A stretch of 64,000 nt of DNA from Ulvibacter litoralis (GTDB lineage Bacteria; Bacteroidota; Bacteroidia; Flavobacteriales; Flavobacteriaceae). A program made the translations under genes and the position numbers. Under the pieces are notes generated by a model. The model did not search any database. It was not told the origin of the DNA and worked only from the letters and a program-made list of their open reading frames with translations. Location: the NCBI RefSeq assembly GCF_900102055.1, contig NZ_FNBA01000002.1, positions 1-64,000 of the forward strand, given 5' to 3'. Positions 7,656 to 33,152 of this stretch are shown here, piece after piece (position 1 is the first letter of the stretch; each line of letters opens with the position of its first letter).

Positions 7656-7726
7656 TTTTATTAAATACTAAAGTTTTTATTAAAACAACATTCACGTTTC
7701 TCGCCAGAGGTTGGATTAAGTGGGTG

Positions 7727-9753: not shown

Positions 9754-10431
9754 TTAGTCTTCTAATAAGTCTGGACGTCTGTCCTCGGTGTGCTTCAATG
9801 CTTCCTCTTCGCGCCAGGTTTCAATTTTTGCGGTGTGACCACTTAGTAGTATTTCAGGAACCTTCCATCCTTTATAGTCCGCTGGACGCGTATAGATTGG
9901 AGGTGCCAGCAATCCATCTTGAAACGAATCGGTTAATGCACTTGTTTCATTTCCTAAAACCCCAGGGATAAGTCGAATCACGGCATCACAAAGTACTGCG
10001 GCTCCGAGTTCGCCGCCACTTAGAACAAAATCGCCTATAGAAATTTCGCGGGTTATAAATTGATCGCGAACGCGTTGATCTACTCCTTTATAATGTCCAC
10101 AAAGAATAATAATGTTTTCTTGTAACGATACCTGATTGGCAATCCCTTGAGTTAAGGTTTCACCGTCGGGTGTCATGTAAATAATCTCGTCGTAGTGTCT
10201 CGCTTCCTTTAGTTTCGAAATGCATTTGTCAATGGGTTCTATCATCATTACCATACCAGCACCGCCACCAAATTGGTAATCGTCAATTTGGTTGTAACTA
10301 TTGGTAGAGAAGTCACGTAAATTGTGCATGTGCACTTCTACCAGCCCTTTTTCAATGGCTCTCTTTAAAATGGAAGCCTCAAACGGACTTGTAAGTAATT
10401 CGGGGAGTACTGTTATAATATCTATGCGCAT
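9754..10431 (-). CDS. trmD: tRNA (guanine-N1)-methyltransferase
   Basis: TrmD methylates G37 of tRNAs that read CNN codons, using SAM, and so prevents +1 frameshifting. The 225-residue protein has the trefoil-knot SPOUT fold signatures: [36 protein letters not shown] and [15 protein letters not shown], and ends with the C-terminal helical region ([15 protein letters not shown]). It starts at ATG 10431, 4 bp after the TPR gene stop, so it is cotranscribed with that gene. Confidence 0.97.
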
Positions 10432-10435
10432 TGGC

Positions 10436-10930
10436 TTATTGTAATTCTTTTTTTAGTTTGCAACGATCGATAGAATCTTTCGCGCGATTTAGGACGTTCT
10501 TGTCTAATGTATTCATACCGCATTTTTTATAATACGTTATTGCTTCGTCTAAATTTCCTTGTTGTTCGTACATGATAGCATATTCATTGTACATGGTTGC
10601 TAATGTAATCCCCGGAATGGTAATAGCGGTATCTAACAGTTTCTTTAAGTCGTCGAACTTTCCGAGGGTAGAAAGCAGCACGGCATAATTATAATATACT
10701 GCAGGATACAAAGGGGTTTTCTCCAAACAAAGTTTGTAAAGCGTTTCTCCTTTTTCGTATTCCTTAAATTTAACTTCGTACAAATATCCTAAGTGATTGT
10801 ATGCTTTTCCGAAGTTGGAATCGATATCAATAATTTTTTCAAGGATGTTTGAAGCTACTTCGTATTTTCCATTTTTAATTTCGAGGTTTGCTTGGTTAAG
10901 CATTTCCTCTAGTTTGGTAAGGTGATCCAT
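10436..10930 (-). CDS. Tetratricopeptide-repeat protein
   Basis: This is a 164-residue cytoplasmic protein without a signal peptide, made of three to four TPR units (around residues 22-56, 57-90 and 109-142; [27 protein letters not shown] and [23 protein letters not shown] show the A/G/Y pattern). Such proteins are scaffolds; no partner can be named. It lies 4 bp before trmD, so the two are probably coexpressed. Confidence 0.8.
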
Positions 10931-10973: not shown

Positions 10974-11414
10974 TTACGCTTCCCAAGTGAAATGATTCAC
11001 ATGGGTGTCTTTTTTCCAGCCGAGACGTTGGTATAACTTCTGGGCAGGATTGTCGACATCTGTTTCGAGGGTTAAGCCTTTGCTTCCTTCAGAAATTGCA
11101 AAAAGTTTGGCGGTTTCCATAAGAGCTTCGCCAACGCCTTTTTTACGTGCTTCGGAAGCGACATAGAGATCATTTAAGATGTAAGTTCGCTGCATAGAAA
11201 CGGATGAAAAGCTTGGATACAATTGTGTAAACCCCAATCCCGTTCCATCGGGCGCAATTGCCAAGAAAATCACAGAGTCTTTCTTTTGAAAACGCTCGGT
11301 TAAAAAAGTACGTGCGGCTTCAGGATTTGAAGCTTGCTTGTAAAACATGCGATAGCCATTAAATAACGGAACGAGTTGATCTAAATCTGCTTCAGTGGCT
11401 TTGTTTACTTTCAT
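10974..11414 (-). CDS. GNAT family N-acetyltransferase
   Basis: This is a 146-residue single-domain GNAT protein. Motif A for acetyl-CoA binding is visible as LYVASEARKKGVGEALMETA, followed by the beta-bulge region LTLETDVDNPAQKLYQRLGWKKD. The substrate is unknown; such proteins modify amines on small molecules or protein N-termini. It lies immediately downstream of the lipoprotein array with 77 bp between, and I see no terminator there, so read-through from the array is possible. Confidence 0.88.
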   Translation of the reverse strand: MKVNKATEADLDQLVPLFNGYRMFYKQASNPEAARTFLTERFQKKDSVIFLAIAPDGTGLGFTQLYPSFSSVSMQRTYILNDLYVASEARKKGVGEALMETAKLFAISEGSKGLTLETDVDNPAQKLYQRLGWKKDTHVNHFTWEA

Positions 11415-11491: not shown

Positions 11492-12922
11492 TTAAATACT
11501 GCAATTTCCATCGATGATGTCTTGCTTCGTTGGGTTGTAGGCATTATAGGCAGCATAATAAATATTAGGCCCTGATGCATTAAATAAATTTTGAAGGGAG
11601 CAAAAATTAGTTAATTGTATATTACCAATTATATCTATTTTCCAGTTGTTTTGTAAACTGTTGAGTCCTTCTAAATTTTGTAAATTATTATTTCGGTAGA
11701 TATTAATTTCATTTACATCTGTCATACTACTAAGTCCCTGAATATTATTTAAAGAATCGTTGTCGTTTATAAAAAGTCCATTTGAAAGACTGGTGATTGA
11801 CTCGAGACCATTTAGGTTTTCAAGCGCGGAGTTATTGTGAATTCTAAGTGTACTGGCTATATCAAAATTTACTAAGCCTTCAATATCTGTAAGGGATGAA
11901 TTATAACCTAGTTCTAAGCTATAAATTTGTGTGTTCAAATTCTGAAGACCGTTTAAGTTCTCTAATAAAGTATTGTGTGTAAAAACTAAAAAACGAATCT
12001 CTTGAGTGAAATTACTTAAATTACTGAGCCCATCGATGTTTGTTAAAGAGTTACAATATTTTACATTCAGGCTACTTCCAAGTGTAGTTAAGTTGCTCAA
12101 CCAATCGAGATTGGGGATTTGAGCACAAGAAAATAGTATAATTCTATTTTCTACCGTAATGAGTTGACTTAAGCCAGAAAGATCATTTAATTGCTCATTA
12201 GTGCTTAATATTAAGTTATATACTGATATTAAATTGTTTAATCCTTCTACTTTTTCTAATGAAGAGTTAACAGTAATAACAAGTTCACCACCTACATAAT
12301 CAATATTCAAGCCTAAAGTTGACACTAAACTTGGATTATTTATAATCCAAAAATTATTGTTTATCGTATTTAAGTTTTGAAGTGGAGATAAATCGAAAAT
12401 ATCTGTTGTTGCTGCTTGCTCTGGGTCTCCGATGGTTAATGAACCATTAACTTTTGTGTAATTATTTGCTCCAAAATCAATTACTTCTTGTTGCGACTTT
12501 AAAATTAAATCACCTTCATAGGTATTGCCTAAATCAATGAGGGTAATTGTAATAGAAGCATTTTCAGAAACAGTGCCATTTGCCACTTTTACAGTACCTG
12601 AAATTGTTGGATTGGTTTCAAATTCAAAAAGATTTGCATCGACAACCTTCAATTCTCCAGAAACTGTATCAATACTAAAAGCTCCCGCGGGTGTTTGCTC
12701 CGTAATTGAAAACGTAACTGTTCCTTGATTGGTAGATCCAGCGACGGTTCCAATTAGTTGTCCTTCGGAAGGATTTTCGTTTATGGTTACTGAAAAATTT
12801 GAAGTAGTTACCGTTATTGCTGAAGCTTCAGGAGTGTTGTCACTGTCTTTGCTACAGGAAATAACTGCAAAAAATACACATAGTAGTGAAAACTGAAGTA
12901 AAGTAGGTTTGAAAATTTTCAT
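11492..12922 (-). CDS. Array lipoprotein 1: cadherin-like plus leucine-rich solenoid (last gene of the array)
   Basis: Predicted surface-exposed lipoprotein of 476 residues. The lipobox is VISC (acylated Cys23) followed by SKDSDN, acidic as in Bacteroidota surface-export signals. A cadherin-like domain spans about 36-130 (FSVTINENPSEGQLIGTVAG, DFETNP-type core as FEFETNPTISGTVKVANG). A leucine-rich/receptor-L-like solenoid follows, with units of about 21-24 residues (pattern N-L-x-x-L-x-G-L-x-N-L). The C-terminal cap has a Cys in NFCSLQNL and ends NAYNPTKQDIIDGNCSI. Its closest relative is the gene at the other end of the array (19685-21103), with an almost identical DNA stretch in the cadherin/solenoid junction. 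Function unknown; adhesion or ligand binding is a guess from domain type. Confidence 0.85.
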   Translation of the reverse strand: MKIFKPTLLQFSLLCVFFAVISCSKDSDNTPEASAITVTTSNFSVTINENPSEGQLIGTVAGSTNQGTVTFSITEQTPAGAFSIDTVSGELKVVDANLFEFETNPTISGTVKVANGTVSENASITITLIDLGNTYEGDLILKSQQEVIDFGANNYTKVNGSLTIGDPEQAATTDIFDLSPLQNLNTINNNFWIINNPSLVSTLGLNIDYVGGELVITVNSSLEKVEGLNNLISVYNLILSTNEQLNDLSGLSQLITVENRIILFSCAQIPNLDWLSNLTTLGSSLNVKYCNSLTNIDGLSNLSNFTQEIRFLVFTHNTLLENLNGLQNLNTQIYSLELGYNSSLTDIEGLVNFDIASTLRIHNNSALENLNGLESITSLSNGLFINDNDSLNNIQGLSSMTDVNEINIYRNNNLQNLEGLNSLQNNWKIDIIGNIQLTNFCSLQNLFNASGPNIYYAAYNAYNPTKQDIIDGNCSI

Positions 12923-12944
12923 GTTTATTCTTCTGAAAGATTAA

Positions 12945-14096
12945 TTAAATACTGCAATTCCCATCAATAATGTCTTGCTCGGTTGGGTTATAGGCGTTAT
13001 TTACAACGGTGTAATCGCCAGAAAGTCCTCCATTCGTCAATAAATTTTGAAGCCCACATAAATCTGTTAAATTATTATTCATTTCTATAAATAGGTTATC
13101 TGTTAAAGTGCTCAGGTTGGATAAACCATCGATATTAGAAAGTGAATTATTATTAAAAATTGATAATTCTCCGTTTATTGAGCTAATACCACTAAGACCA
13201 TTTATATCTGTTAAGAGATCATTTTCATCTATTTCAAATGATTCTGTGATATTGGAAATATGTAAGTCATCTAAATTTACTAAAGAATCATTGTCTGTTA
13301 TTGATAAATAACTTACTGAAGTTATATTGTTAAGACCGTTTAGATTAGCTAAAACAGGATTTCCATATAGTTGCAAACTGAGTGTGAGTTCGGTAATGTT
13401 ACTGAGAGCAGAAATATCTGTTAGTACATCATTTAGCATTATATTTATGGTGCCTGCTGTTTCAATATTTTCTAAACCAGTTAAAGAAGTTAATCCATCA
13501 TTATCGTAAATATTCAATTGATTACCTATATGTTTTATGGAGCTCAATGGTCTTAAGTTATTAAACATAGTAGATTGATTCAAACTCCCAATAAATAAAT
13601 TTCCGGTAACATGGGTATAATTATTTGCACCAAAATTATCTATATCCAGTTGTGTTTCTAATGTAATACCCCCTTCAAATATATTATCCTCATTAAAATC
13701 TTTAATTGTAATGGTTATGGAAGCGTTTTCAGAGACTGTTCCATTGGTAACGGCAACAGTTCCTGTAACCGATGTGTTTGTTTCAAAATCGAATAGTGTT
13801 GGGTCGGCAACTGTTAATTCGCCAGAAGTGCTATTAATTGCAATTGCTCCAGCGGGTGATTGTTCAGTAATAGAGAACGTTATAGACCCTTGATTTGTGT
13901 TTGCCGAAACTGTACCTAGTAATTGACCCTCTTCTGGGTTTTCTACTACTGTTGTTATAAAGTTGGAAGTGAGTACAGTGATTACGTCTCCTAGGTTTTC
14001 GTGGGTATTTTCGTCGTTTTTACTGCATGAAACAACTGTAAATGCAATGCATAATAAGGTAAACTGAAAAAAATAGTAGGATAAAAAGCTTTTCAT
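12945..14096 (-). CDS. Array lipoprotein 2: cadherin-like plus leucine-rich solenoid
   Basis: This is a 383-residue paralogue with lipobox VVSC (Cys24) then SKNDENTHEN. Its cadherin-like domain (about 38-135) is of the second array subtype (VVENPEEGQLLGTV, ISINSTSG-like AIAINSTSGELTVADP) and ends with the calcium-site-like FNEDN. The solenoid starts LRPLSSIKHIGNQLNIYDN and has about eight units. The cap has Cys in DLCGLQNL and ends GNCSI. Its solenoid start and last 50 residues match the paralogue at 18449-19657 very closely, while the cadherin domains of those two differ. Spacer to the next gene is 22 bp. Function is unknown. Confidence 0.85.
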   Translation of the reverse strand: MKSFLSYYFFQFTLLCIAFTVVSCSKNDENTHENLGDVITVLTSNFITTVVENPEEGQLLGTVSANTNQGSITFSITEQSPAGAIAINSTSGELTVADPTLFDFETNTSVTGTVAVTNGTVSENASITITIKDFNEDNIFEGGITLETQLDIDNFGANNYTHVTGNLFIGSLNQSTMFNNLRPLSSIKHIGNQLNIYDNDGLTSLTGLENIETAGTINIMLNDVLTDISALSNITELTLSLQLYGNPVLANLNGLNNITSVSYLSITDNDSLVNLDDLHISNITESFEIDENDLLTDINGLSGISSINGELSIFNNNSLSNIDGLSNLSTLTDNLFIEMNNNLTDLCGLQNLLTNGGLSGDYTVVNNAYNPTEQDIIDGNCSI

Positions 14097-14127
14097 GAAC
14101 TTATAGTTTTTTTATGAGAAATATTAA

Positions 14128-15282
14128 TTAGATGCTACAATTACCATCTATAATATCTTGTTGTGTTGGGTTGTAGGCGTTGCTATGTACAATATATTCG
14201 TTTGAAAGGCCTCCATTGACAATTAAGTTTTGAATACCACAAAGATTGGTTAAATTAATATTGTTATTTATTTGTAAGTGATATAGGAGAAAATTAAGGT
14301 TCGACAAACCATCAATATTAGTAAGCGAAGCATTATATGAAATTTCAATGTGCCCATTAATCGAACTGATACTATTAAGACTGTCTATATTTGTTAAGAG
14401 GTCATTATCGCTAATAATAACTGAATTATTAGCAGTAGAAATATGTAGGTCGTCCAAATCTGTTAAAGCACTATTTTCTGCAATACTTAGAGAGCCAACA
14501 GAGGTTATGTTGTGAAGTCCATTTAAATTAGATAGCAAAGGATTTAGCCATACGTACAAGTCGAGTCTAATTTCAGTAACATTACTCAAAGCAGAAATGT
14601 CAGCTAGCTTATCATTTTGTATAATATAAATAGTGTTAATAACAGTTTCAATGTTTTCTAATCCTGCTAAGGATGTTAACTCTATATTACGAAAAATAGT
14701 TAATCGGTTTCCTATACTTCTTATTGAGGATAGCGGTGTTATATCGTTAAATGTAGTAGCATCATCAATACTACCTATTTGTAAACTTCCTGTAATATGG
14801 GTATAATTATTAGCTCCAAAGTCATCTATTTCTTGTTGTGTTTCTAAGATTACAGTGCCTTCAAAAATTTTATCCTCATTAACATCTTCTATAGAGATTG
14901 TTATGATGGCATTTTGAGAGATAGTCCCATTGGTAACGGCTACTATTCCAGTTATGGTGGTATTTATTTCAAAGTCGAATGCAGCTGGGTCTGCAACAGT
15001 TAGTTCGCCTGAAGCGCTATTAATTGCCAGCGCTCCAGGTGATGATTCGGAGGTGATTGTATATGATAGGGTTCCCTGAGTTGTAGCTCCCGAAACAGCG
15101 CCTATAACTTGATTCTGTTCAGGATTTTCTACAATGCTGGCTACGAAATTAGAGGTGGTCAAGAGATCTGTAACTTCTGGAATTAGAGGCGTATCTTCAC
15201 TGTCTTTACTACAGGAGACAACAGCAAATGTAGCACATAGTAATACAAATTGAAATAGAGGAGTAGCGTTGAATATTTTCAT
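14128..15282 (-). CDS. Array lipoprotein 3: cadherin-like plus leucine-rich solenoid
   Basis: This is a 384-residue paralogue. The frame is open to an ATG at 15318 inside the upstream gene, but the signal peptide starts at ATG 15282 (MKIFNATPLFQFVLLC), giving lipobox VVSC (Cys24) and the usual 23-bp spacer; the apparent overlap with gene 4 is therefore not real. The cadherin-like domain is of the second subtype (IVENPEQNQVIGAVSG) and ends with DVNED, the classical cadherin linker motif. The solenoid resembles genes 2 and 6 (ITPLSSIRSIGNRLTIF). The cap has Cys in NLCGIQNL and terminal GNCSI. Function is unknown. Confidence 0.84.
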   Translation of the reverse strand: MKIFNATPLFQFVLLCATFAVVSCSKDSEDTPLIPEVTDLLTTSNFVASIVENPEQNQVIGAVSGATTQGTLSYTITSESSPGALAINSASGELTVADPAAFDFEINTTITGIVAVTNGTISQNAIITISIEDVNEDKIFEGTVILETQQEIDDFGANNYTHITGSLQIGSIDDATTFNDITPLSSIRSIGNRLTIFRNIELTSLAGLENIETVINTIYIIQNDKLADISALSNVTEIRLDLYVWLNPLLSNLNGLHNITSVGSLSIAENSALTDLDDLHISTANNSVIISDNDLLTNIDSLNSISSINGHIEISYNASLTNIDGLSNLNFLLYHLQINNNINLTNLCGIQNLIVNGGLSNEYIVHSNAYNPTQQDIIDGNCSI

Positions 15283-15305
15283 AGTTTTTTCTTCTGAAAG
15301 ATTAG

Positions 15306-17027
15306 TTAAATACTGCAATTCCCATCGATGATGTCTTGCTTCGTTGGGTTGTAGGCGTTGTTAAATACGGTGTAGTCGCTTGAAGGTCCTCCATTATTTA
15401 TTAGTGTTTGAATACCGCAAAAATCAGTTAAATTTCCATTACTACGAATGTCTAAATCATTATCAATGCTACTAAGGTTTGATAAATCGTCTAAATTAAC
15501 CAGTGCATCATTAGAACTAATGTATAAACTACCCTCAAAAGAAGTTATGTTATTTAGACCTTGGAGTGAAACCAATGCATTGTTTCCAGTTACTTTCAGT
15601 GAATGTAAAGATGAAAAAGATTCCAATCCACTTAAATTGGTTAGGTTGGGATTGAATAAGATATTCAACGAATTAATAACTGCCTGAGCGGGTATTCCTG
15701 CTAATGAAGTTAGATTCTCGTTTTCAATGATCTCAAATTTATTTATTTCAGTTATATTTTGTAATCCATTTAAATTACTTAAAAGATTGTTTTCAGTCAG
15801 ATAAAAAGTATCTGTAACAGTGGAAAGATTTGTTAGGTTTAAACTAGATAAATATGGGTTGTTCTGAATAAATAATCTGTTTACACTACTAATGTTTTGG
15901 AGTGCGTCAATATTTTCTAATAAAGTATTCCCTACAATTTCTAACATCTCTACGGAAAGGTTTTCAAGCCCTGAAAGTCCGTCTAAGCTTAGTAGCGAGT
16001 TATTTTGGTTTATATTTAATTCATCACCAATAAAAGCTAGATTTTCCAAACCCTCTAAATTTATAAGGCTATTATTATTAGATATGCCGAAACTATAAGT
16101 TACTGAAGTGAAATTTGAGAGCTCATGAAGGTTTAGTAGATTTTGATTGTTAACGATTCCTCCCCAACCAATATGCGTTAAATTAGACAATCCGTTTAGA
16201 TATAATAATGAATCATTGCCGAAAATAAAAAAGTATTCTTCAATGTTCTCTATGTTATTAAGAGCGTTAAAGCTTGTTAAGTTGTCATTTTCCATGACGT
16301 ACAAATCTTTAATTGTCCCCGTAATATTATTTAGACTTTCAATATTTATTAAGAGAGAATTTGTGTGAATGGCTAAGGTTCCTCCTACAGATGTTACATT
16401 TTCTAGTCCTACTAATGAAGTTAACTCTGAGTTATATCCTATGTACAATGTCTCACCAACTGATGTTAGGTCGACTAGGGGGGTTAAATCTATAATTGAT
16501 TGTTGGTTTACGTTTGTAGGTGTCCCAATATAAATCTCGCCAGTAATATGTGTGTAATGGTTTTGCCCAAAAGTGTTTACTTCTTCTTGAGTTAATAAGG
16601 TTATGTCGCCATCATAAATATTTTCTTCATTTATATTACTCACATTAATTATAACCGAAACATTTTCAGAAACAGCACCATTGGCAACTTTTATAGTTCC
16701 AGAAATTGTTGGATTTGTTTCAAAATCAAAAAGATTTGCATTGGCAACTTTCAATTCTCCAGAAGCTACATCAATACTAAAAGCTCCCGAGGGTGTTTGC
16801 TCCGTAATTAAAAACGTAACTGTTCCTTGATTGGTAGTTCCAGCAACGGTTCCGATAAGTTGCCCTTCGGAAGGATTTTCGTTTATGGTTACTGAGAAAT
16901 TTGAAGTGGTTACTGTTATTACTGTAGCTTCAGGAGTGTCTTCGCTGTCTGTGCTACAGGAGATGATGGCTAATGTGGCGCATACTAGTAAAAACTTTAG
17001 TGCATACCTAAATTTGAATATTCTCAT
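15306..17027 (-). CDS. Array lipoprotein 4: longest paralogue, extended leucine-rich solenoid
   Basis: This is the longest array member at 573 residues, with lipobox IISC (Cys24) then STDSEDTPE. Its cadherin-like domain (about 38-135) is nearly identical at DNA level to that of gene 6 across the segment encoding SEGQLIGTVAG to VANANLFDFETNP. The solenoid has roughly fifteen or more units (LTSLVGLENVTSVGGTLAI, LINLEGLENLAFIGDELNI, and so on), clearly expanded against the 350-residue siblings. The cap has Cys in DFCGIQTL and ends GNCSI. Extra length probably reflects unequal exchange between repeats. Function is unknown. Confidence 0.85.
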   Translation of the reverse strand: MRIFKFRYALKFLLVCATLAIISCSTDSEDTPEATVITVTTSNFSVTINENPSEGQLIGTVAGTTNQGTVTFLITEQTPSGAFSIDVASGELKVANANLFDFETNPTISGTIKVANGAVSENVSVIINVSNINEENIYDGDITLLTQEEVNTFGQNHYTHITGEIYIGTPTNVNQQSIIDLTPLVDLTSVGETLYIGYNSELTSLVGLENVTSVGGTLAIHTNSLLINIESLNNITGTIKDLYVMENDNLTSFNALNNIENIEEYFFIFGNDSLLYLNGLSNLTHIGWGGIVNNQNLLNLHELSNFTSVTYSFGISNNNSLINLEGLENLAFIGDELNINQNNSLLSLDGLSGLENLSVEMLEIVGNTLLENIDALQNISSVNRLFIQNNPYLSSLNLTNLSTVTDTFYLTENNLLSNLNGLQNITEINKFEIIENENLTSLAGIPAQAVINSLNILFNPNLTNLSGLESFSSLHSLKVTGNNALVSLQGLNNITSFEGSLYISSNDALVNLDDLSNLSSIDNDLDIRSNGNLTDFCGIQTLINNGGPSSDYTVFNNAYNPTKQDIIDGNCSI

Positions 17028-17053
17028 GATTTTTAGTTTATTCCGAAGAAAAA

Positions 17054-18418
17054 TTAAATACTACAATTTCCATCGATGATGTCTTGCTTCGTTGGGTTGT
17101 AGGCGTTGTTATGTGCACCAAAATATCCAACTGATCCAGAAATACAAAGATTTTCGAGAGCACAATAATTTGTAAGGTTTGAATTATCCCAAATAGATAC
17201 CTGTACGCTTACTTCTACAAGATTCTCTAAACCATGTAAGCTTATTAAATTTTCATTATTTTCTATACGAACATGTGTATTAATATTCGTAATCTTTTCA
17301 AGACCAGAAAGATCAGTTAAAGAATTATTACTAAAAATATCAAGTTGTCCATAGCAACTAATATTCTCCAAGCCATTGAGGCTAAATAATGAATTATTAT
17401 AATTGATATAAATTCTACGAATATTCCCTTCTACATTTTCAAGTGGAGTCAAGCTTGTTAAATTAGGGTTATTGTCAATAATAATTTCATCTTGAATTGA
17501 AACTACCCCTGAAAGCGCAGTAATGTTTTCTATGTTTTCATTACCTGAAATTTGAAGCGTTCCTACAGAGGTAATGTTTTGCAGTCCATTTAAATCTACC
17601 AATGGGGTTACTTGAATCGACAAATAACTTGCAATTGTTGTGATGCTTTCTAATCCCTGAAGATTAGTTAACAAAGGGTTCAAATGAAGCATTAAAGAGT
17701 CGTTAATTTCTGTAATCTCTCCTAAGTTTTCCAAGGTTAACAAAGCTGGATTCACTACTATAGCTAAGGTTCCTCCTATTTCTGAAAGATTTTCAAGGCC
17801 TGAAAGTGTTTGTAATTCTCCATTATAGGAAATGGTTACATAATTGCCAACAAAAGTTAATGCTTGTAATGGAGATAAGTTAGTAATGTTAGAATAGGTG
17901 GTACCCGAATCGTGTCCAATAAGAAGATATCCGGTAATACCCGTGTAATTATGAGTTCCAAACTCATCTACTTCCGTTTGCGTTCTAAGTATGACGTCTC
18001 CTTGGTAAATATTTTCTTCAGAAATATCTGAAATGCTTATTGTAACTAATGCATTTTCAGAAATCGCGCCATTGGCAACGTTTACCGTACCCGAAATGGT
18101 AGGATTGGTTTCAAAGTCGAAAAGTGCTTCGTTGGCAACCTTCAATTCTCCCGAAGCTGCATCAATAGTAAAAGCTCCCGAGGGCGTTTGTTCGGTAATT
18201 GAAAATGTAACTGTTCCTTGATTGGTTGTTCCAGCAACGGTTCCGATTACTTGTCCTTCGGAAGGGTTTTCGTCTATGGTTACTGAAAAATTTGAGGTGG
18301 TTACGGTTATATCTGACGCTTCAGGAGTGTCTTCGCTGTCTTTGCTACAGGAGAGAATTGCAAATGAAGCAAAAAGTAACGTGAATTTAAGTAAATAGGT
18401 TGAGTTGAATAGTTTCAT
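17054..18418 (-). CDS. Array lipoprotein 5: cadherin-like plus leucine-rich solenoid
   Basis: This is a 454-residue paralogue with lipobox ILSC (Cys24) then SKDSEDTPE. The cadherin-like domain is of the first subtype (TIDENPSEGQVIGTVAG, DFETNPTISGTVNVANG). The solenoid is its own lineage (LSPLQALTFVGNYVTISYNGELQTLSGLENL, LTSLTPLENVEGNIRRIYI) and carries an extra Cys in ENISCYGQLDIF. The cap differs slightly: YCALENLCISGSVGYFGAHNNAYNP, with two Cys before the terminal GNCSI. Spacer to the next gene is 26 bp. Function is unknown. Confidence 0.84.
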   Translation of the reverse strand: MKLFNSTYLLKFTLLFASFAILSCSKDSEDTPEASDITVTTSNFSVTIDENPSEGQVIGTVAGTTNQGTVTFSITEQTPSGAFTIDAASGELKVANEALFDFETNPTISGTVNVANGAISENALVTISISDISEENIYQGDVILRTQTEVDEFGTHNYTGITGYLLIGHDSGTTYSNITNLSPLQALTFVGNYVTISYNGELQTLSGLENLSEIGGTLAIVVNPALLTLENLGEITEINDSLMLHLNPLLTNLQGLESITTIASYLSIQVTPLVDLNGLQNITSVGTLQISGNENIENITALSGVVSIQDEIIIDNNPNLTSLTPLENVEGNIRRIYINYNNSLFSLNGLENISCYGQLDIFSNNSLTDLSGLEKITNINTHVRIENNENLISLHGLENLVEVSVQVSIWDNSNLTNYCALENLCISGSVGYFGAHNNAYNPTKQDIIDGNCSI

Positions 18419-18448
18419 AAATTTAAAATTGTGTCTTTCCGAAGAAAA

Positions 18449-19657
18449 TTAAATACTGCAATTTCCATCGATGATGTCTTGTTCGGTTGGGTTGTAGGCG
18501 TTATTTACAACGGTGTAATCACCAGAAAGGCCTCCATTCGTCAATAAATTTTGAAGACCACATAAATCTGTTAATGTAGCATTTGAATTAATAGTTAGTT
18601 CTTGTTCAAGAAGGGTAAGATTTGTTAATCCATTAATGTCTGTAAGAGAATCGTTTTGGGATATTGTAACGAAACCATAGATTGAACCTAAATTACTTAA
18701 CCCATCAATATCTGTAAGAGAGTTGTTTTGGGATATTATAAGATCTCTGTAAATTATACTTATGTTACTTAAGCTATTTAAATTAGTTATAAGTGGATTT
18801 TCAGTAATTTCTATTGAATATGTAACTGTAGTTATGTTTAAGTCATCCAAATTTAACAATGCAGAATTGTTATTTATTATTAAATCACCAAAAGAAGTTA
18901 TATTGTGAAGACCATTTAGATTGGTTAGTGCAGGATTATTATCTACTCGAATATCTAGAGGAAGTTCAGTAATATTACTGAGAGCGGAAATATCTGCTAG
19001 CAGGTCATTATTAATTATTTGTATTCTGTTTAAAGTTTCAATATTTTCTAAACCTGTTAAAGAAGTTAACCCATTATTTTTGTAGACGGCCAATCCATTT
19101 CCCAAGTGTTTTATAGAGCTCAATGGTGTTAAATCGTTAAATACAGCATATTGATTAACTCCTCCTATATATAAATTTTCAGTAATATGGGTGTAATTAT
19201 TAGCTCCGAAATCGTTAATTTCTTCTTGGGTTGTTAGAAATATAGTGCCCTCATAAATATGCTCTTCATATAAGTCATCCACACTAATTATAACTGAGGC
19301 ATTTTCAGAAACAGTGCCATTTGCCACTTTTACAGTACCTGAAATTGTTGGATTGGTTTCAAAATCAAAAAGATTTGCATTGGCAACTTTCAATTCTCCA
19401 GAAGCTACATCAATACTAAAAGCTCCCGAGGGTGTTTGCTCGGTAATTGAAAACGTAACTGTTCCTTGATTGGTAATTCCAGCAACGGTTCCGATAAGTT
19501 GCCCTTCGGAAGGATTTTCGTTTATGGTTACTGAAAAATTTGAAGTAGTAACGGTAACTTCTGAAGTATCCTCACTGTCTTTACTGCAGGAGATAATGGC
19601 TAATGAGGCGCATACTAGTAAAAACTTTAGCGCATACCTAGGTTTGAATATTTTCAT
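18449..19657 (-). CDS. Array lipoprotein 6: apparent chimera of gene-4-type cadherin and gene-2-type solenoid
   Basis: This is a 402-residue paralogue with lipobox IISC (Cys24) then SKDSEDTSE. The signal peptide and cadherin-like domain match gene 4 almost residue for residue (signal MKIFKPRYALKFLLVC against MRIFKFRYALKFLLVC). The solenoid start (LTPLSSIKHLGNGLAVYKN) and the whole cap (DLCGLQNLLTNGGLSGDYTV) match gene 2. The 3' flanking spacer instead matches the one after gene 1. This is the clearest mosaic in the array. Function is unknown. Confidence 0.85.
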   Translation of the reverse strand: MKIFKPRYALKFLLVCASLAIISCSKDSEDTSEVTVTTSNFSVTINENPSEGQLIGTVAGITNQGTVTFSITEQTPSGAFSIDVASGELKVANANLFDFETNPTISGTVKVANGTVSENASVIISVDDLYEEHIYEGTIFLTTQEEINDFGANNYTHITENLYIGGVNQYAVFNDLTPLSSIKHLGNGLAVYKNNGLTSLTGLENIETLNRIQIINNDLLADISALSNITELPLDIRVDNNPALTNLNGLHNITSFGDLIINNNSALLNLDDLNITTVTYSIEITENPLITNLNSLSNISIIYRDLIISQNNSLTDIDGLSNLGSIYGFVTISQNDSLTDINGLTNLTLLEQELTINSNATLTDLCGLQNLLTNGGLSGDYTVVNNAYNPTEQDIIDGNCSI

Positions 19658-19684
19658 AGTTTTTTATTTTATTCCAAAGAAAAG

Positions 19685-21103
19685 TTAAATACTGCAATTC
19701 CCATCGATGATATCTTGTTCGGTTGGGTTGTAGGCGTTATAACCCGCGTAATAAACGGCGGGGCCTGATGTGGTGAAGAAATTTTTAAGGGAACAGAAAT
19801 CGGTTAATTGTGAATTACCAGAAATACTTAATTCCCTGTTAGATTGTAAGTTGTTCAGTCCTTCTAAGTTTTGCAAACTATTGTTTTGGTGTAAATTGAT
19901 TACTTGAACATCCGTTATATTACTAACACCCTGAATGTTATTTAAAGCAATGTTATCATTTATAAAAAGTCCATTTGAAAGACTAGTAATTTTCTCAAGA
20001 CCATTTAAGTTCTCAAGCGCTGAATTACCGTGAATTTTAAGGGTGTTATTTATATCTATATTCTCTAAACCTTCGATAGTTGTAAGGGAAAAATTATTAC
20101 CTATTTCTAAACTATAAATATGGGTGTTCAAATTCCTAAGACCATCTAAATTCTTTAATGAAGTATTGTGTGTAATAAGGAAAAAACGAAACTCATTAGT
20201 TAAATTAATTAAATTACTAAGCCCATCGATGTTAGTCAATGAGTTACAATATCTAATATCTAGGCTGCCTCCAAGTGTCGTTAAGTTGTTTAGCCAATCG
20301 AGATTGGGTATTTGAGGACAAGAAAACACTATAATTTTATTTTCTACTGAAATGAGTTGGCTTAAGCCAGAAAGATCATTTAATTGCTCATTAGTACTTA
20401 ATATTAAGTCATATACTGATATTAAATTGTTTAATCCTTCTACTTTTTCTAATGAAGAGTTAACAGCAATAACAAGTTCACCACCTACATGATCAATATT
20501 CAAGCCTAGAGTTGATACTAAACTTGGATTATTTATAATCCAAAAATTATTGCTTATAGTATTTAAGCCTTGAAGTGGAGATAAATCGAAAATATCTGTT
20601 GTTGCTGCTTGCTCTGGGTCTCCGATGGTTAATGAACCATTAACTTTTGTGTAATTATTTGCTCCAAAATCAATTACTTCTTGTTGCGACTTTAAAATTA
20701 AGTCACCTTCATAGGTATTGCCTAAATCAATGAGGGTAATTGTAATAGAAGCATTTTCAGAAATAGTGCCATTTGCCACTTTTACAGTACCTGAAATTGT
20801 TGGATTGGTTTCAAATTCAAAAAGATTTGCATCGGCAACCTTCAATTCTCCCGAAGCTGCATCGATACTAAAAGCGCCCGCAGGAGTTTGCTCAGTAATA
20901 GAAAATGTGACACTACCTTGATTGGTTGTTCCTGAAACCGTTCCGATAACTTGCCCTTCGGAAGGATTTTCGTCAATGGTTACTGAAAAATTTGAAGTAG
21001 TAACCGTTACTTCTGAAGCTTCAGAAGTATTATCACTGTCTGTGCTACAGGAGATGAGTGTAACGGTAATGAGTAGTAGGGCTAGTTTTAGGGCGTTCTT
21101 CAT
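19685..21103 (-). CDS. Array lipoprotein 7: first gene of the array operon
   Basis: This is the promoter-proximal array gene, 472 residues. The frame is open further upstream to 21151, but the signal peptide begins at ATG 21103 (MKNALKLALLLITVTLISC, lipobox LISC, Cys19), and the upstream residues read across a perfect inverted repeat. Its signal peptide is unlike the other six. The cadherin-like domain is first subtype; the solenoid is the sister of gene 1 (IFDLSPLQGLNTISNNFWI, IPNLDWLNNLTTLGGSLDI). The cap has Cys in DFCSLKNF and ends GNCSI. The spacer to gene 6 is 27 bp. Function is unknown; surface location is inferred from the acidic residues after the Cys. Confidence 0.84.
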   Translation of the reverse strand: MKNALKLALLLITVTLISCSTDSDNTSEASEVTVTTSNFSVTIDENPSEGQVIGTVSGTTNQGSVTFSITEQTPAGAFSIDAASGELKVADANLFEFETNPTISGTVKVANGTISENASITITLIDLGNTYEGDLILKSQQEVIDFGANNYTKVNGSLTIGDPEQAATTDIFDLSPLQGLNTISNNFWIINNPSLVSTLGLNIDHVGGELVIAVNSSLEKVEGLNNLISVYDLILSTNEQLNDLSGLSQLISVENKIIVFSCPQIPNLDWLNNLTTLGGSLDIRYCNSLTNIDGLSNLINLTNEFRFFLITHNTSLKNLDGLRNLNTHIYSLEIGNNFSLTTIEGLENIDINNTLKIHGNSALENLNGLEKITSLSNGLFINDNIALNNIQGVSNITDVQVINLHQNNSLQNLEGLNNLQSNRELSISGNSQLTDFCSLKNFFTTSGPAVYYAGYNAYNPTEQDIIDGNCSI

Positions 21104-21104
21104 T

Positions 21105-21134
21105 AAAAATGTATTTTTGTAAACATACATTTTT
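21105..21134 (-). promoter_or_regulatory. Perfect inverted repeat abutting the start codon of the lipoprotein array
   Basis: AAAAATGTAT (21105-21114) and ATACATTTTT (21125-21134) are perfectly complementary over 10 bp with a 10-nt loop. One base separates the repeat from the ATG of the first array gene at 21103. On the minus strand the arm-loop junction reads TATGTTTA, close to the -7 consensus TAnnTTTG, so the repeat may overlap a promoter. It could be an operator or an RNA hairpin masking the start. Confidence 0.5.
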
Positions 21135-21215
21135 TCAAAATAGTAGCCCAAAAAAAAAGCCCATTAATTAAAATGTGCTTTTCAGAGTACGATAAAAACG
21201 AACTTTTTTTGTAGC

Positions 21216-22436
21216 TTAATTTTCCTCTTTATCTTCTTCTTTAGTACCATCAAACAAATTTTTCAAAAAACCTGTGGTGTCTTTTTCACGTTCTGCACGG
21301 CGTTGTTCACGTCTTTTTTTCCGAAGTTCCTTTTTTTCTTCTTTGCTGAGGTTGGGATCGTTAAAGGCATCTTCAAAATCGATGACATTATCTACTTTTT
21401 CAGAAAAGGCACGAATCCATGCATTTTCAAAAATACTTATAACAGTAGGCCAAACACCTGCCTCCACATTGTTTAAATCACCTTCAATAGGAACTCTTGT
21501 AGCCAACGTATTGGTTCCTTGATTTTTCAGAATAAATTTAAAAAAGCTTACAAAGCCTTCCCAAAGCACACCTAGAAAACCATCTTCACTTCCAATCAAT
21601 TTTGTTTTGGTTAGAAGCGGTTTTAGATAACCTTTTAGATGTCCGTCGGCAATGGCGATTTCACTAAAAAGGCCAAAAGTTCCAGATTCAAAATCGATTC
21701 CTGTATAATGACGCGTAAATGGATTTAGCGCCGTTACATTCGCATTTTCTAGCGAAAAATTGATGTTCATATCGGGAATCTCTTTGACAATATTCATAGC
21801 CCCATCGAGTGAGACTGTTCCGTTTCCAATGGAAACTCCTGTGGCTTTGATAGGAGAAGGAAGAACCCGTTCTTTTGCTACGACATTCCGAAGGTTGTCG
21901 GCCGTTAAGGTGATTTTTGAAATTTGAAGATCAATATTCGGATCTGTGTTCACTTCAACATACGCGAAACCTCCATCATGGACCTCAAAGTGGTTAATTT
22001 CTAGCGGAACAATATCGGTAAGCGCTTTGGTCCAATCGTCAATATTAGGATCACCTTCAGTTGGAGTTTTTTGTTGATCTTCGGCAACATAAATCACTTT
22101 CGGACTGGTCATTATAATTTCGGACACTATTCTTCCCTTTAAAAGTGATTTCCATTCAATAGAAACATCGCTTTTTGGAAAGCTTAAAAAAGGTACTTGT
22201 GTTTCAGCATCCACTTTGTTGAGGTACATTCCGTGAATTTGATAAGCGCCACGGTATAATGAAATGTTTATTTTGTCCACTTGTCCGTAATACCCAGGAA
22301 TATCGGCAAGAACTTTATTGATGTAATTTTTTGTCCAAACGGGAAGGTACAAACGAGCCGCTACTAAAAGAAGTAATAGAATAATAGGGAAGGTGTACCG
22401 TTTCTTTTTATAAACTCTTCTCTTCTTTTTTGTCAT
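21216..22436 (-). CDS. DUF748/AsmA-like membrane-anchored protein
   Basis: This is a 406-residue protein with a basic N-terminus (KKKRRVYKKKRY), one transmembrane anchor (about residues 17-35, FPIILLLLLVAARLYLPVW) and a long periplasmic beta-rich region. It resembles DUF748, relatives of the AsmA/TamB lipid-transfer-like envelope proteins (VDKINISLYRGAYQIHGMYL, PLEINHFEVHDGGFAY, SLDGAMNIVKEIPDMNINFSLENANV). The C-terminal 60 residues are highly charged (EEKKELRKKRREQRRAERE), a probable coiled coil. The frame opens at TTG 22469; the ATG at 22436 (MTKKKRR) is preferred. A role in envelope integrity is inferred from the family. Confidence 0.72.
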   Translation of the reverse strand: MTKKKRRVYKKKRYTFPIILLLLLVAARLYLPVWTKNYINKVLADIPGYYGQVDKINISLYRGAYQIHGMYLNKVDAETQVPFLSFPKSDVSIEWKSLLKGRIVSEIIMTSPKVIYVAEDQQKTPTEGDPNIDDWTKALTDIVPLEINHFEVHDGGFAYVEVNTDPNIDLQISKITLTADNLRNVVAKERVLPSPIKATGVSIGNGTVSLDGAMNIVKEIPDMNINFSLENANVTALNPFTRHYTGIDFESGTFGLFSEIAIADGHLKGYLKPLLTKTKLIGSEDGFLGVLWEGFVSFFKFILKNQGTNTLATRVPIEGDLNNVEAGVWPTVISIFENAWIRAFSEKVDNVIDFEDAFNDPNLSKEEKKELRKKRREQRRAEREKDTTGFLKNLFDGTKEEDKEEN

Positions 22437-22507
22437 TCTAAAAGTGGGTTTGCTTTTAACAAATTTCAAATAAAGAAGGCTGATTGTCAGTTAATGAACT
22501 CACAAAA

Positions 22508-22557: not shown

Positions 22558-24006
22558 CTAGTAGTATGTAAAACGTCTTACTTTAGCAATGTATTTTGCC
22601 AAACGAATTACTTGGTGGCTATAGCCATATTCGTTATCGTACCAAACGTAAAGTACAACATTTTTACCATCATTAGCGACAATAGTAGCATTACTATCGT
22701 AGATTGAAGGAGCCGAAGATCCCACAATATCACTAGATACTAATTCATTGTTTAACGAGTATTTTATTTGCTCTACCAAGTCACCTTCAAGTGCGTATTT
22801 TTTCATTACGGCATTAAGGGCGTCTACTGAAGTTGTATTTTCTAATTCTAGTTTTAAAATAGCCAAAGAGCCATTTGGAACAGGAACACGAATCGCATTT
22901 GAAGTTAACTTTCCTTCAAATGAAGGCAATGCTTTTGTTACTGCTTTACCAGCTCCAGTTTCAGTAATTACCATGTTTAATGCAGCTGCACGACCACGAC
23001 GGTATTTACTATGCATATTATCTACCAAGTTTTGATCGTTGGTATACGCGTGAATGGTTTCTAAATGTCCTTGAACTACACCAAATGAATCTTCAATTGC
23101 TTTTAAAATAGGTGTAATTGCATTGGTAGTACAAGAAGCCGCAGAGAAAATAGATACTTCGTCTGGGCTGTAATCTTTATGATTTACACCGTGAACGATA
23201 TTTGGAACTCCTTTTCCTGGTGCTGTAAGTAATACTTTTGAAGCTCCTTTTGAAGTTAAGTGACGACTTAAAGCTTCTTCATCTCTGAAGGCGCCTGTAT
23301 TATCAATAACCAAAGCATCTTCAATACCATACGATGTATAGTCAATTTCTTCTGGACCATTTGCAGAAATCATATGAACCGTAGTTCCGTTTATGATTAA
23401 CGCTTTATTTTCAACATCGATACGAACCGTTCCTGGAAAATCTCCGTGAACAGAATCCAATTGTAATAATGAAGCTCTTTTTTCCAAAACAGTTTCAGTA
23501 ATAGCACCACGTGTTACAATAGCACGCAAACGCATTTGGTTTCCTTTACCCGTACGTGTCATTAACTCTCTCGCTAACAAACGACCAATTCTTCCGAAGC
23601 CATATAAAACAACATCTTTAGGAACAATATCGGTACTTTCTTTAGCGTCTTTTAATTTGTCTGAAACAAACGCAAGCGCATCAGAAAATTTGTTGTCTTC
23701 TAAGTGGTATTCATACGTTAACTTTCCAATATCTAATTTAGCAGGAGGAAGCCCAAGTGTTTTAATCGCTTGTGCAATTTCTACTGAATCAAAGATAGAA
23801 ATAGGTTTTTGTACAAATTCGCCAGCATATTCGTGAAGATTTAAAATCTCACTTACGTTGCGATCTATTAGTTGATTTCTGAAAAGTACCAATTCTATCG
23901 ATTTGTCATACCAAAGATCACTAATAATATTAATAAACTCAACGGTAGCCTTGCGGCGATCGGTTTGAAAAGACAGTTCTTTTTCATAAACGTCATCAAA
24001 ACTCAT
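22558..24006 (-). CDS. gap: Glyceraldehyde-3-phosphate dehydrogenase, long form with N-terminal extension
   Basis: GAPDH oxidises glyceraldehyde-3-phosphate to 1,3-bisphosphoglycerate with NAD(P)+. The dinucleotide fold begins at VLYGFGRIGRLLARE (about residue 133) and the catalytic Cys lies in FSAASCTTNAITPILKA; VWYDNEYGYSHQVIRLA closes the catalytic domain. At 482 residues it is about 140 longer than standard 335-residue enzymes; the extra part is an N-terminal helical extension (FQTDRRKATVEFINIISDLWYDKSIELVLFRN region). This long form is common in Bacteroidota, where a second short GAPDH may also be present. The gene is monocistronic, with its own promoter and terminator. Confidence 0.94.
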   Translation of the reverse strand: MSFDDVYEKELSFQTDRRKATVEFINIISDLWYDKSIELVLFRNQLIDRNVSEILNLHEYAGEFVQKPISIFDSVEIAQAIKTLGLPPAKLDIGKLTYEYHLEDNKFSDALAFVSDKLKDAKESTDIVPKDVVLYGFGRIGRLLARELMTRTGKGNQMRLRAIVTRGAITETVLEKRASLLQLDSVHGDFPGTVRIDVENKALIINGTTVHMISANGPEEIDYTSYGIEDALVIDNTGAFRDEEALSRHLTSKGASKVLLTAPGKGVPNIVHGVNHKDYSPDEVSIFSAASCTTNAITPILKAIEDSFGVVQGHLETIHAYTNDQNLVDNMHSKYRRGRAAALNMVITETGAGKAVTKALPSFEGKLTSNAIRVPVPNGSLAILKLELENTTSVDALNAVMKKYALEGDLVEQIKYSLNNELVSSDIVGSSAPSIYDSNATIVANDGKNVVLYVWYDNEYGYSHQVIRLAKYIAKVRRFTYY

Positions 24007-31721: not shown

Positions 31722-33152
31722 TTATAACGTTAGTTTCTTATTAAGATCTTCTACGTATTTTCTGAATTGTTTGTCGGTAGTAGAAAGATTGTCTACAGTT
31801 TTACAAGCGTGAAGTACGGTTGCATGATCGCGCTGTCCAATTTGAGAACCAATAGATGCTAATGAAGCTTTGGTTAGTTTCTTTGCAAAGAACATTGCTA
31901 ATTGTCTCGCTTGTACAATGTGACGCTTACGGGTTTTAGATTGTAAGGTGTCAACATCCATTTGGAAATAATCGCTCACTACTTTTTGGATGTAGTCGAT
32001 AGATACTTCACGTTTAATGTGCTTCACGTAGTTATCAACAATTTTCTTCGCTAATTCAATAGTGATTTCGCGTTTGTTGAATGATGAATGAGCAATTAAA
32101 GAAATAATAGCGCCTTCCAGTTCGCGAATGTTTGTTTTGATGTTGTTGGCTAGAAACTCAACAATATCATCTGGCATTTCCACACCATCGCGATACAATT
32201 TGTTTTTAATAATGGCAACACGTGTATCGTAATCTGGATGGTTCAATTCTGCTGAAAGTCCCCATTTGAAACGTGATAATAAGCGTTGTTCTATATCAAT
32301 CATATCGACAGGAGCCTTGTCACTTGTTAAAATAACTTGCTTTCCGTTTTGATGTAAGTGATTGAAAATATGGAAGAAAACGTCTTGTGTTCCTGCTTTA
32401 CCAGACAATAATTGAATGTCGTCTACAATAAGCACATCTATAATTTGGTAAAAATGAATAAAGTCATTTCTGTTATTTTTCTTTACCGACTCAATGTACT
32501 GTTGTGTGAATTTTTCAGCAGAAATATAAAGAACTGTTTTCTCAGGATATTTGTCTTTTATTTCAACTCCGATAGCGTGTCCTAAATGCGTTTTTCCTAA
32601 ACCAACACCTCCAAATATAAGCAGTGGGTTAAAAGAAGTTCCTCCAGGTTTGTTGGCAACAGCTAAACCAGCCGAGCGCGCCAAACGGTTCGATTCTCCT
32701 TCTAAGAAACTCTCAAAGTTGTAATTTGGATTTAATTGTGATTCGATTTTTACATTTCGAATCCCAGGAATGATAAACGGATTTTTAAGCTCCGGACTTT
32801 TATTTTTAAGTGGCACATCAACTTCTTGCGATTGTTGAGCGTTGCTTCTATTTGAACTTGGAATTTTTTCGGTAAATGGTTGTTTGTTACCGTAGGTGTT
32901 TTCCATTTTAATAATGTACACCAATTTTGCAGTCGCACCTAACTCTTTGTTAAGAGCTACTTTTAACAACTTCACGTAGTGCTCCTCAAGCCATTCGTAA
33001 AAAAACTTACTTGGCACTTGAATACTAAGAGCATTGTCTGTAAGCTTTACAGCCTTAATTGGTTCGAACCAAGTCTTGTATGCCTGAGATGCAATATTAT
33101 CTTCAATAAAGGACAAACAGTTGTTCCAAACCGATTCCGCAGTTTTGCTCAT
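31722..33152 (-). CDS. dnaA: Chromosomal replication initiator DnaA
   Basis: DnaA is the ATP-dependent initiator that binds oriC. The 476-residue protein has domain I (about 1-80), a low-complexity linker (about 90-130), the AAA+ domain with Walker A GGVGLGKTH and Walker B VLIVDDIQLL, sensor segments (SRFKWGLSAEL), and the C-terminal DNA-binding helix-turn-helix with signature GQRDHATVLHACKTVDNL. The 209-bp upstream region has only one near-match to a DnaA box (TTGTTCACA, minus strand, about 33246-33254), so autoregulation is possible, but there is no evidence that oriC is here. Confidence 0.97.
   Translation of the reverse strand: MSKTAESVWNNCLSFIEDNIASQAYKTWFEPIKAVKLTDNALSIQVPSKFFYEWLEEHYVKLLKVALNKELGATAKLVYIIKMENTYGNKQPFTEKIPSSNRSNAQQSQEVDVPLKNKSPELKNPFIIPGIRNVKIESQLNPNYNFESFLEGESNRLARSAGLAVANKPGGTSFNPLLIFGGVGLGKTHLGHAIGVEIKDKYPEKTVLYISAEKFTQQYIESVKKNNRNDFIHFYQIIDVLIVDDIQLLSGKAGTQDVFFHIFNHLHQNGKQVILTSDKAPVDMIDIEQRLLSRFKWGLSAELNHPDYDTRVAIIKNKLYRDGVEMPDDIVEFLANNIKTNIRELEGAIISLIAHSSFNKREITIELAKKIVDNYVKHIKREVSIDYIQKVVSDYFQMDVDTLQSKTRKRHIVQARQLAMFFAKKLTKASLASIGSQIGQRDHATVLHACKTVDNLSTTDKQFRKYVEDLNKKLTL

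Follow-up and report, generated by a model that had tools for sequence, protein, structure and literature searches.

The 64,000-nucleotide stretch of the Ulvibacter litoralis contig NZ_FNBA01000002.1 analyzed here (the window) carries, between positions 11492 and 21103 on the minus strand, seven complete and co-oriented open reading frames (ORFs) encoding related lipoproteins in which a cadherin-like domain is followed by a leucine-rich repeat (LRR) solenoid. We number these genes in the direction of transcription, from A1 (19685-21103; protein P0007, 472 amino acids (aa)), the first gene of the array, through A2 (18449-19657; P0006, 402 aa), A3 (17054-18418; P0005, 454 aa), A4 (15306-17027; P0004, 573 aa, with the longest solenoid of the seven), A5 (14128-15282; P0003, 384 aa) and A6 (12945-14096; P0002, 383 aa) to the last gene, A7 (11492-12922; P0001, 476 aa). 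The gaps between adjacent genes are, in window order, 22, 31, 23, 26, 30 and 27 bp, and all seven reading frames are intact. A5 and A1 start at the ATG codons at 15282 and 21103, respectively, the N-terminal extensions given to them by the ORF finder (15283-15318 and 21104-21151) being dispensable. The ORFs, the 22-31 bp spacers, the full-length alignment of the products and their common domain plan bear out the seven-gene tandem array described in the first-pass annotation. The one further family member found in the same genome is a lone LRR-cap lipoprotein gene that lacks the cadherin-like domain (G000:C38:877424-878761; L023:8422-9846), and thus the array is not a chance grouping.

We infer from the gene spacing that the seven genes form a single, co-transcribed operon. 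The sole long gap upstream of the array (21104-21215, minus strand) is its candidate promoter region. The sequence TATGTTTA, located approximately 25 bp ahead of the A1 start codon, resembles the Bacteroidota -7 element TAnnTTTG and is a candidate promoter; scanning the array for the Bacteroidota promoter consensus gave no perfect match. Ahead of TATGTTTA, following the DUF748 gene, is a terminator-like hairpin with a T-tract, which is weak (fold z -1.8). We found no convincing invertible promoter, inverted repeats or slippery repeats at the array that would indicate phase variation. Long-range inverted repeats were rejected as phase-variation elements, since these matches are of low complementarity and fall mostly within coding sequence.

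The seven proteins align end to end, each having a signal peptide, a Cys-Ser pair, an acidic linker, a cadherin-like domain, an LRR solenoid and a C-terminal cap. The cadherin-like domain ends at around residue 137. The solenoid then spans 201-393 residues, or about 8-17 repeats, and in all seven copies these repeats are of the form LxIxxNxxL with a period of 22-25 residues. The last 17 residues constitute the cap, NAYNPTxQDIIDGNCSI, which is nearly invariant across the copies. The Pfam cadherin model PF00028 matches every copy, always below its cut-off (17.2-27.2 against 28.8 bits). When the alignment is read by eye at the cadherin calcium-motif positions, the Glu of ENP and the D-x-E of FDFE are kept in most copies, the DxDxG and AxDxG motifs are substituted by TNQG and VANG, and the full calcium-binding set is not present. 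It is because of the sub-threshold matches and these replaced motifs that we use the term cadherin-like. The best PDB matches returned by Foldseek are cadherin EC domains, a strong fold match. The solenoids of all seven copies match Recep_L_domain and/or LRR_EndoS, with at least one of these models above its cut-off (21.8 and 27.9 bits, respectively) in five of the seven (P0002, P0003, P0004, P0005 and P0007) and both sub-threshold in P0001 (A7) and P0006 (A2). Structure prediction, proposed at the outset and run with AlphaFold on A2 (pLDDT 91.8) and A4 (pLDDT 91.2), confidently models a cadherin-like beta-sandwich followed by a single unbroken LRR solenoid and the cap. A viral fold library yielded generic cadherin and LRR matches only. 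NCBIfam matches to lactaldehyde reductase score far under the cut-off and this identity was discarded.

A lipobox is present in all seven proteins, with a hydrophobic helix leading into ISC, VSC or LSC followed by Ser, the Cys and Ser being invariant. After the Cys, six copies read S-K/T-D-S-E/D and A6 reads S-K-N-D-E. In Capnocytophaga canimorsus the tested minimal lipoprotein export signal (LES) is C-X-K-(D/E)2-X, and SDDFE, the LES derived for Flavobacterium johnsoniae, is functional when used in C. canimorsus (PMC5080379). The array proteins share with these Bacteroidota surface lipoproteins (PMC5080379) the polar or basic and acidic residues after the Cys, and differ from them in that the second acid falls, in most copies, one position late. 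The exact C-X-K-(D/E)2 motif is found in the homologues L088 and L091. With these LES-like residues the array proteins are likely to be exposed on the cell surface.

The array genes are mosaics, and copies have exchanged modules. Synonymous divergence (dS) is low in the cadherin module and high in the LRR module for the pairs A2/A4 (0.30 and 2.7), A4/A7 (0.39 and 2.8) and A2/A7 (0.38 and 2.1), while A2/A6 shows the reverse pattern (2.7 and 1.2), with the final 40 residues, including the cap, identical in protein sequence; the result here is the contrast between the two modules rather than the dS values themselves. A2 accordingly joins an A4-like cadherin module to an A6-like solenoid and cap. 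The youngest pair is A1/A7, whose LRR regions are 81% identical (dS 0.34). Because the synonymous sites themselves differ between the modules, the contrast should not arise from protein-level selection alone. For A2/A4, A2/A7, A4/A7 and A1/A2, the best breakpoints placed with third codon positions lie between residues 119 and 162, close to the domain junction, and were equaled in 0-1 of 1000 shuffles. Approximately unbiased (AU) tests on the seven copies lead to mutual rejection of the cadherin and solenoid trees, with p values of 7e-5 on the cadherin data and 5e-69 on the solenoid data.

Substitutions within the solenoids are concentrated on the beta-sheet face. With faces labeled from the repeat register and the strands of the AlphaFold models rather than from computed solvent accessibility, comparisons among A2, A5 and A6 show that 74-79% of codons differ on the sheet face, compared with 32-38% of the remaining exposed codons and 11-15% of core codons. 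The corresponding nonsynonymous divergences (dN) are 0.90-1.21, 0.17-0.21 and about 0.1, and the difference between the sheet face and other exposed positions is significant by Fisher test (p 3e-5 to 1.5e-4). The strands of the A2 model coincide with the sheet-face segment of the repeat. For A1/A7, 35% of sheet-face codons differ against 18% of those at other exposed positions (p 0.035; dN 0.20 against 0.10). The dN/dS ratio is about 0.8-1.4 on the sheet face, with a large error, compared with about 0.1-0.2 elsewhere. The copies are thus not under uniform purifying selection: sheet-face dN is close to dS, and modules have been exchanged.

The array lies within a block of genes, GAPDH-DUF748-GNAT-TPR-trmD, that is conserved across this section of the Flavobacteriaceae; one or two of the genes are absent from some members. 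All are on the minus strand in the window: GAPDH (22558-24006) is the outer marker of the block, the genes for the DUF748 protein (21216-22469) and the GNAT acetyltransferase (10974-11414) form the two flanks of the insertion site, and those for the TPR protein and trmD (9754-10930) continue the block downstream. We read the GAPDH-GNAT interval in 35 genomes or contigs, a set picked in part through homologue matches. The interval holds DUF748 and seven copies in the window and exactly one copy in five lineages, namely L018 (an Aequorivita metagenome-assembled genome (MAG) in which the copy sits on the opposite side of DUF748), G107, G159, G304 and G339; in the G159 stretch (L093) GAPDH is unlabelled, yet GNAT, TPR and trmD come after the copy. 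There is no copy at the site in any of the three genus mates sampled (G001, G002 and G003) or at the 26 remaining sites read. The less biased subset, made up of 27 genomes located by way of their TPR gene, has seven copies at one site, one copy at four and none at 21, with one site unreadable. Within the genus g101 one copy is present in G304 and none in G103. None of these relatives has the same seven genes, and we conclude that this is an old locus, as a rule with a single copy, that many lineages have lost or never acquired and that has expanded in this one. DUF748 itself (window 21216-22469; L085-L087) is kept in many relatives, was not found in the three genus mates, and is located elsewhere in several other genera.

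A second array is found in a Flavobacteriales MAG (L020), where six cadherin-LRR lipoproteins and one PKD/LamG lipoprotein are encoded in a row. Copies b and d of this array have cadherin modules that are 92% identical (dS 0.16) and LRR regions that are 39% identical (dS 1.6), and the solenoid of L020_d is closest (57%) to that of L019_x, the single L019 copy. As L019 carries a related downstream lipoprotein gene, it may represent the corresponding locus of a different species. The L020 array is an independent replicate of the mosaic pattern seen in the window. The PKD and LamG (concanavalin-like) lipoprotein gene, at L020:8934-9917, lies between two copies of the six-gene array. Beyond L020, adjacent cadherin-LRR genes were found only as a pair in G339; G312, G042 and G277 have adjacent pairs with different N-termini. 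The genome searches scored the best few candidates per genome, and so further arrays may exist. A family profile matches 132 of 300 Flavobacteriaceae genomes sampled, in some through the cadherin-like part only. In G280 (L101:5055-7706) two adjacent lipoproteins have the same cadherin-like module with no LRR, one of them with three cadherin-like repeats. We found no published description of such arrays in the open-licence literature, subscription journals being outside the search. The array can be described as a flavobacterial array of surface-type LRR proteins with a lipoprotein anchor and a cadherin-like stalk.

We think it probable, from the sequence features above, that the array encodes outer-membrane recognition or adhesion lipoproteins that have been diversified by tandem duplication and module recombination. 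The differences in copy number between species (seven, one or none), the module exchange and the sheet-face change all agree with the diversifying family proposed in the first-pass annotation. The lipid anchor and acidic linker would hold each protein at the outer membrane facing outward, with the cadherin-like stalk raising it from the membrane, the parallel beta-sheet face of the solenoid serving as the binding surface and the conserved cap closing the solenoid. Tandem duplication in this lineage would have started from an ancestral gene present once at the GAPDH-GNAT site. Recombination close to the boundary between cadherin and LRR modules, by gene conversion or unequal crossing-over, would then have kept the stalks similar while joining them to old, divergent solenoids, and the build-up of substitutions on the beta-sheet face would be a second route of diversification. 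Each solenoid would in this way present a different sheet face to external macromolecules, whether other cells, particles, or surface glycans or proteins, and a repertoire of seven would give breadth of recognition.

Several observations count against this interpretation. The solenoid dS estimates are saturated beyond 1.5, and solenoids that differ in repeat number can be aligned only approximately. In most copies the second acid of the putative export signal comes one residue later than in the minimal signal that has been tested. The overall dN/dS stays under 1 (0.2-0.5), and the sheet-face ratio of about 1 could reflect very weak constraint or a mixture that includes positive selection; as this ratio is not demonstrably above 1, relaxed constraint and positive selection are inseparable. 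Single-copy homologues from different species (L020_d and L019_x) likewise vary most on the sheet face, and the bias is thus a property of the family rather than specific to the array.

The most serious rival explanation, given that most relatives do without the gene, is a neutral expansion through ordinary tandem duplication under relaxed constraint, with conversion a by-product of homology and the copies largely redundant. The sheet-face ratio, which is not clearly greater than 1, and the copy number of zero in most relatives are as this explanation would have them. It is more difficult to reconcile with seven intact frames, given that most of the solenoids are anciently divergent, with the strong constraint on core and non-sheet positions (dN/dS about 0.1-0.2), or with the occurrence of the same pattern in two independent arrays, and we regard it as unlikely.

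Equally unlikely, in our assessment, is that several of the genes were acquired one by one from other flavobacteria, through recombination at a permissive site, instead of being duplicated in place. The GAPDH-GNAT interval does appear permissive for insertions, since relatives hold unrelated genes there, among them a GFO_IDH_MocA-type oxidoreductase gene with an RRSF leader that occupies the interval, on the opposite strand, in several relatives (L088:9406-10818; L093:6977-8389; L143:7024-8436; L145:6489-7901). Trees that combine the short segments with sequences from outside the array are poorly supported; monophyly of the seven genes is recovered in neither segment tree, and the start of the A1/A7 solenoid clusters with the G107 copy at the same site (82/87). 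Against separate arrivals, the AU test does not reject a single origin of the seven (0.28 and 0.33), and the spacers after A2 and A7 are near-identical to each other in their shared sequence, as are those after A4 and A6, which favors tandem duplication of gene-plus-spacer units. No tRNA, recombinase or mobile genes flank the array, and no relatives of its genes occur in the phage records, viral contigs or plasmids searched; on these grounds we rejected mobile-element or phage cargo as an identity for the array.

A still less probable alternative is that the proteins are surface glycan-binding lipoproteins feeding polysaccharide uptake, each tuned to a different glycan. Bacteroidota outer-membrane lipoproteins often capture glycans, and a PKD/LamG lipoprotein is found inside the L020 array, but no SusC/SusD, glycoside hydrolase or regulator adjoins the array in the window, and most of the neighbors, in the window as well as at the syntenic loci with one copy, are housekeeping genes. 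A polysaccharide utilization locus was rejected, the neighbors in the window being GAPDH, DUF748, GNAT, TPR, trmD and DUF885 with no linked SusC/SusD or carbohydrate-active enzyme. We found no conserved partner gene, and hence no functional partner, since the neighbors of homologues outside the GAPDH-trmD site vary from genome to genome. None of the seven proteins has a match in PADLOC-DB, and a known anti-phage defense system was accordingly rejected. Least probable is phage-driven surface variation, in which the solenoids would be phage attachment sites or decoys that change to escape adsorption and the array would give redundancy: an arms race would account for the presence/absence polymorphism and for the fast change of a single exposed face, but phage receptors need not come in seven co-oriented copies, no phase-variation element was found at the array, and there are neither phage or viral relatives nor PADLOC matches, although a receptor would need none.

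The diversified recognition lipoproteins that we favor have analogs among known LRR proteins. A profile search with the array family matches Internalin K, and the Listeria internalins are likewise surface LRR proteins encoded by tandem paralogues, which form new combinations by recombination, InlH having arisen in this way from InlC2 and InlD (PMC5397405). The internalins are, however, Gram-positive proteins, mostly anchored through LPXTG or GW modules, in which the LRR is typically preceded by a helical N-cap and followed by an Ig-like inter-repeat domain, whereas the window proteins have a lipid anchor specified by a lipobox, a cadherin-like domain ahead of the LRR, no Ig-like domain after it and a different cap that ends the sequence. 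As anchor, domain order and cap all differ, we rejected an internalin identity. BspA of Tannerella forsythia, a surface-type LRR protein implicated in adhesion, comes from the same phylum as the array proteins, but these are of a different repeat class and lack a type IX secretion system (T9SS) tail. A BspA-type identity was rejected, with no PF13306 (LRR_5) match in the seven proteins at E-values up to 1. Closest in solenoid type and cap are the flavobacterial LRR-cap lipoproteins and T9SS LRR proteins (Recep_L_domain/LRR_EndoS), which differ in being mostly encoded by lone genes, often with Big or FN3 N-termini, or in exceeding 1000 aa.

Lamprey variable lymphocyte receptors and plant LRR receptors combine constant parts with solenoids that vary on the beta-sheet face, and the array proteins resemble them in this respect; unlike in those systems, we saw no somatic assembly or programmed switching, and diversification would be on an evolutionary time scale. 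By analogy, we put forward as a doubtful extension that flavobacteria possess a recombining recognition repertoire at two independent loci, in which a fixed, lipid-anchored cadherin-like stalk is joined time and again to alternative LRR solenoids in tandem arrays, with fast turnover of outward-facing specificities for the recognition of partners, prey or phage, and that this repertoire is a bacterial counterpart of the constant/variable LRR receptor repertoires. Were the interpretation that we favor right, the interval from GAPDH to GNAT-TPR-trmD would allow bacterial LRR recognition proteins to be followed between species as they arise, are shuffled and disappear, and the seven natural solenoids on a near-common stalk would permit direct comparison of ligands. 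It would also link the flavobacterial LRR-cap lipoproteins, a large and mostly unassigned class, with recognition and not with a structural function.

Elsewhere in the window, dnaA is located at 31722-33152, about 10 kb from the array, which may therefore lie near the replication origin. An Rfam L19-Flavobacteria ribosomal protein leader is present at 7686-7713 on the minus strand, and positions 48841-52887 encode a protein of 1348 aa that combines a GEVED domain with a sorting tail for type IX secretion.

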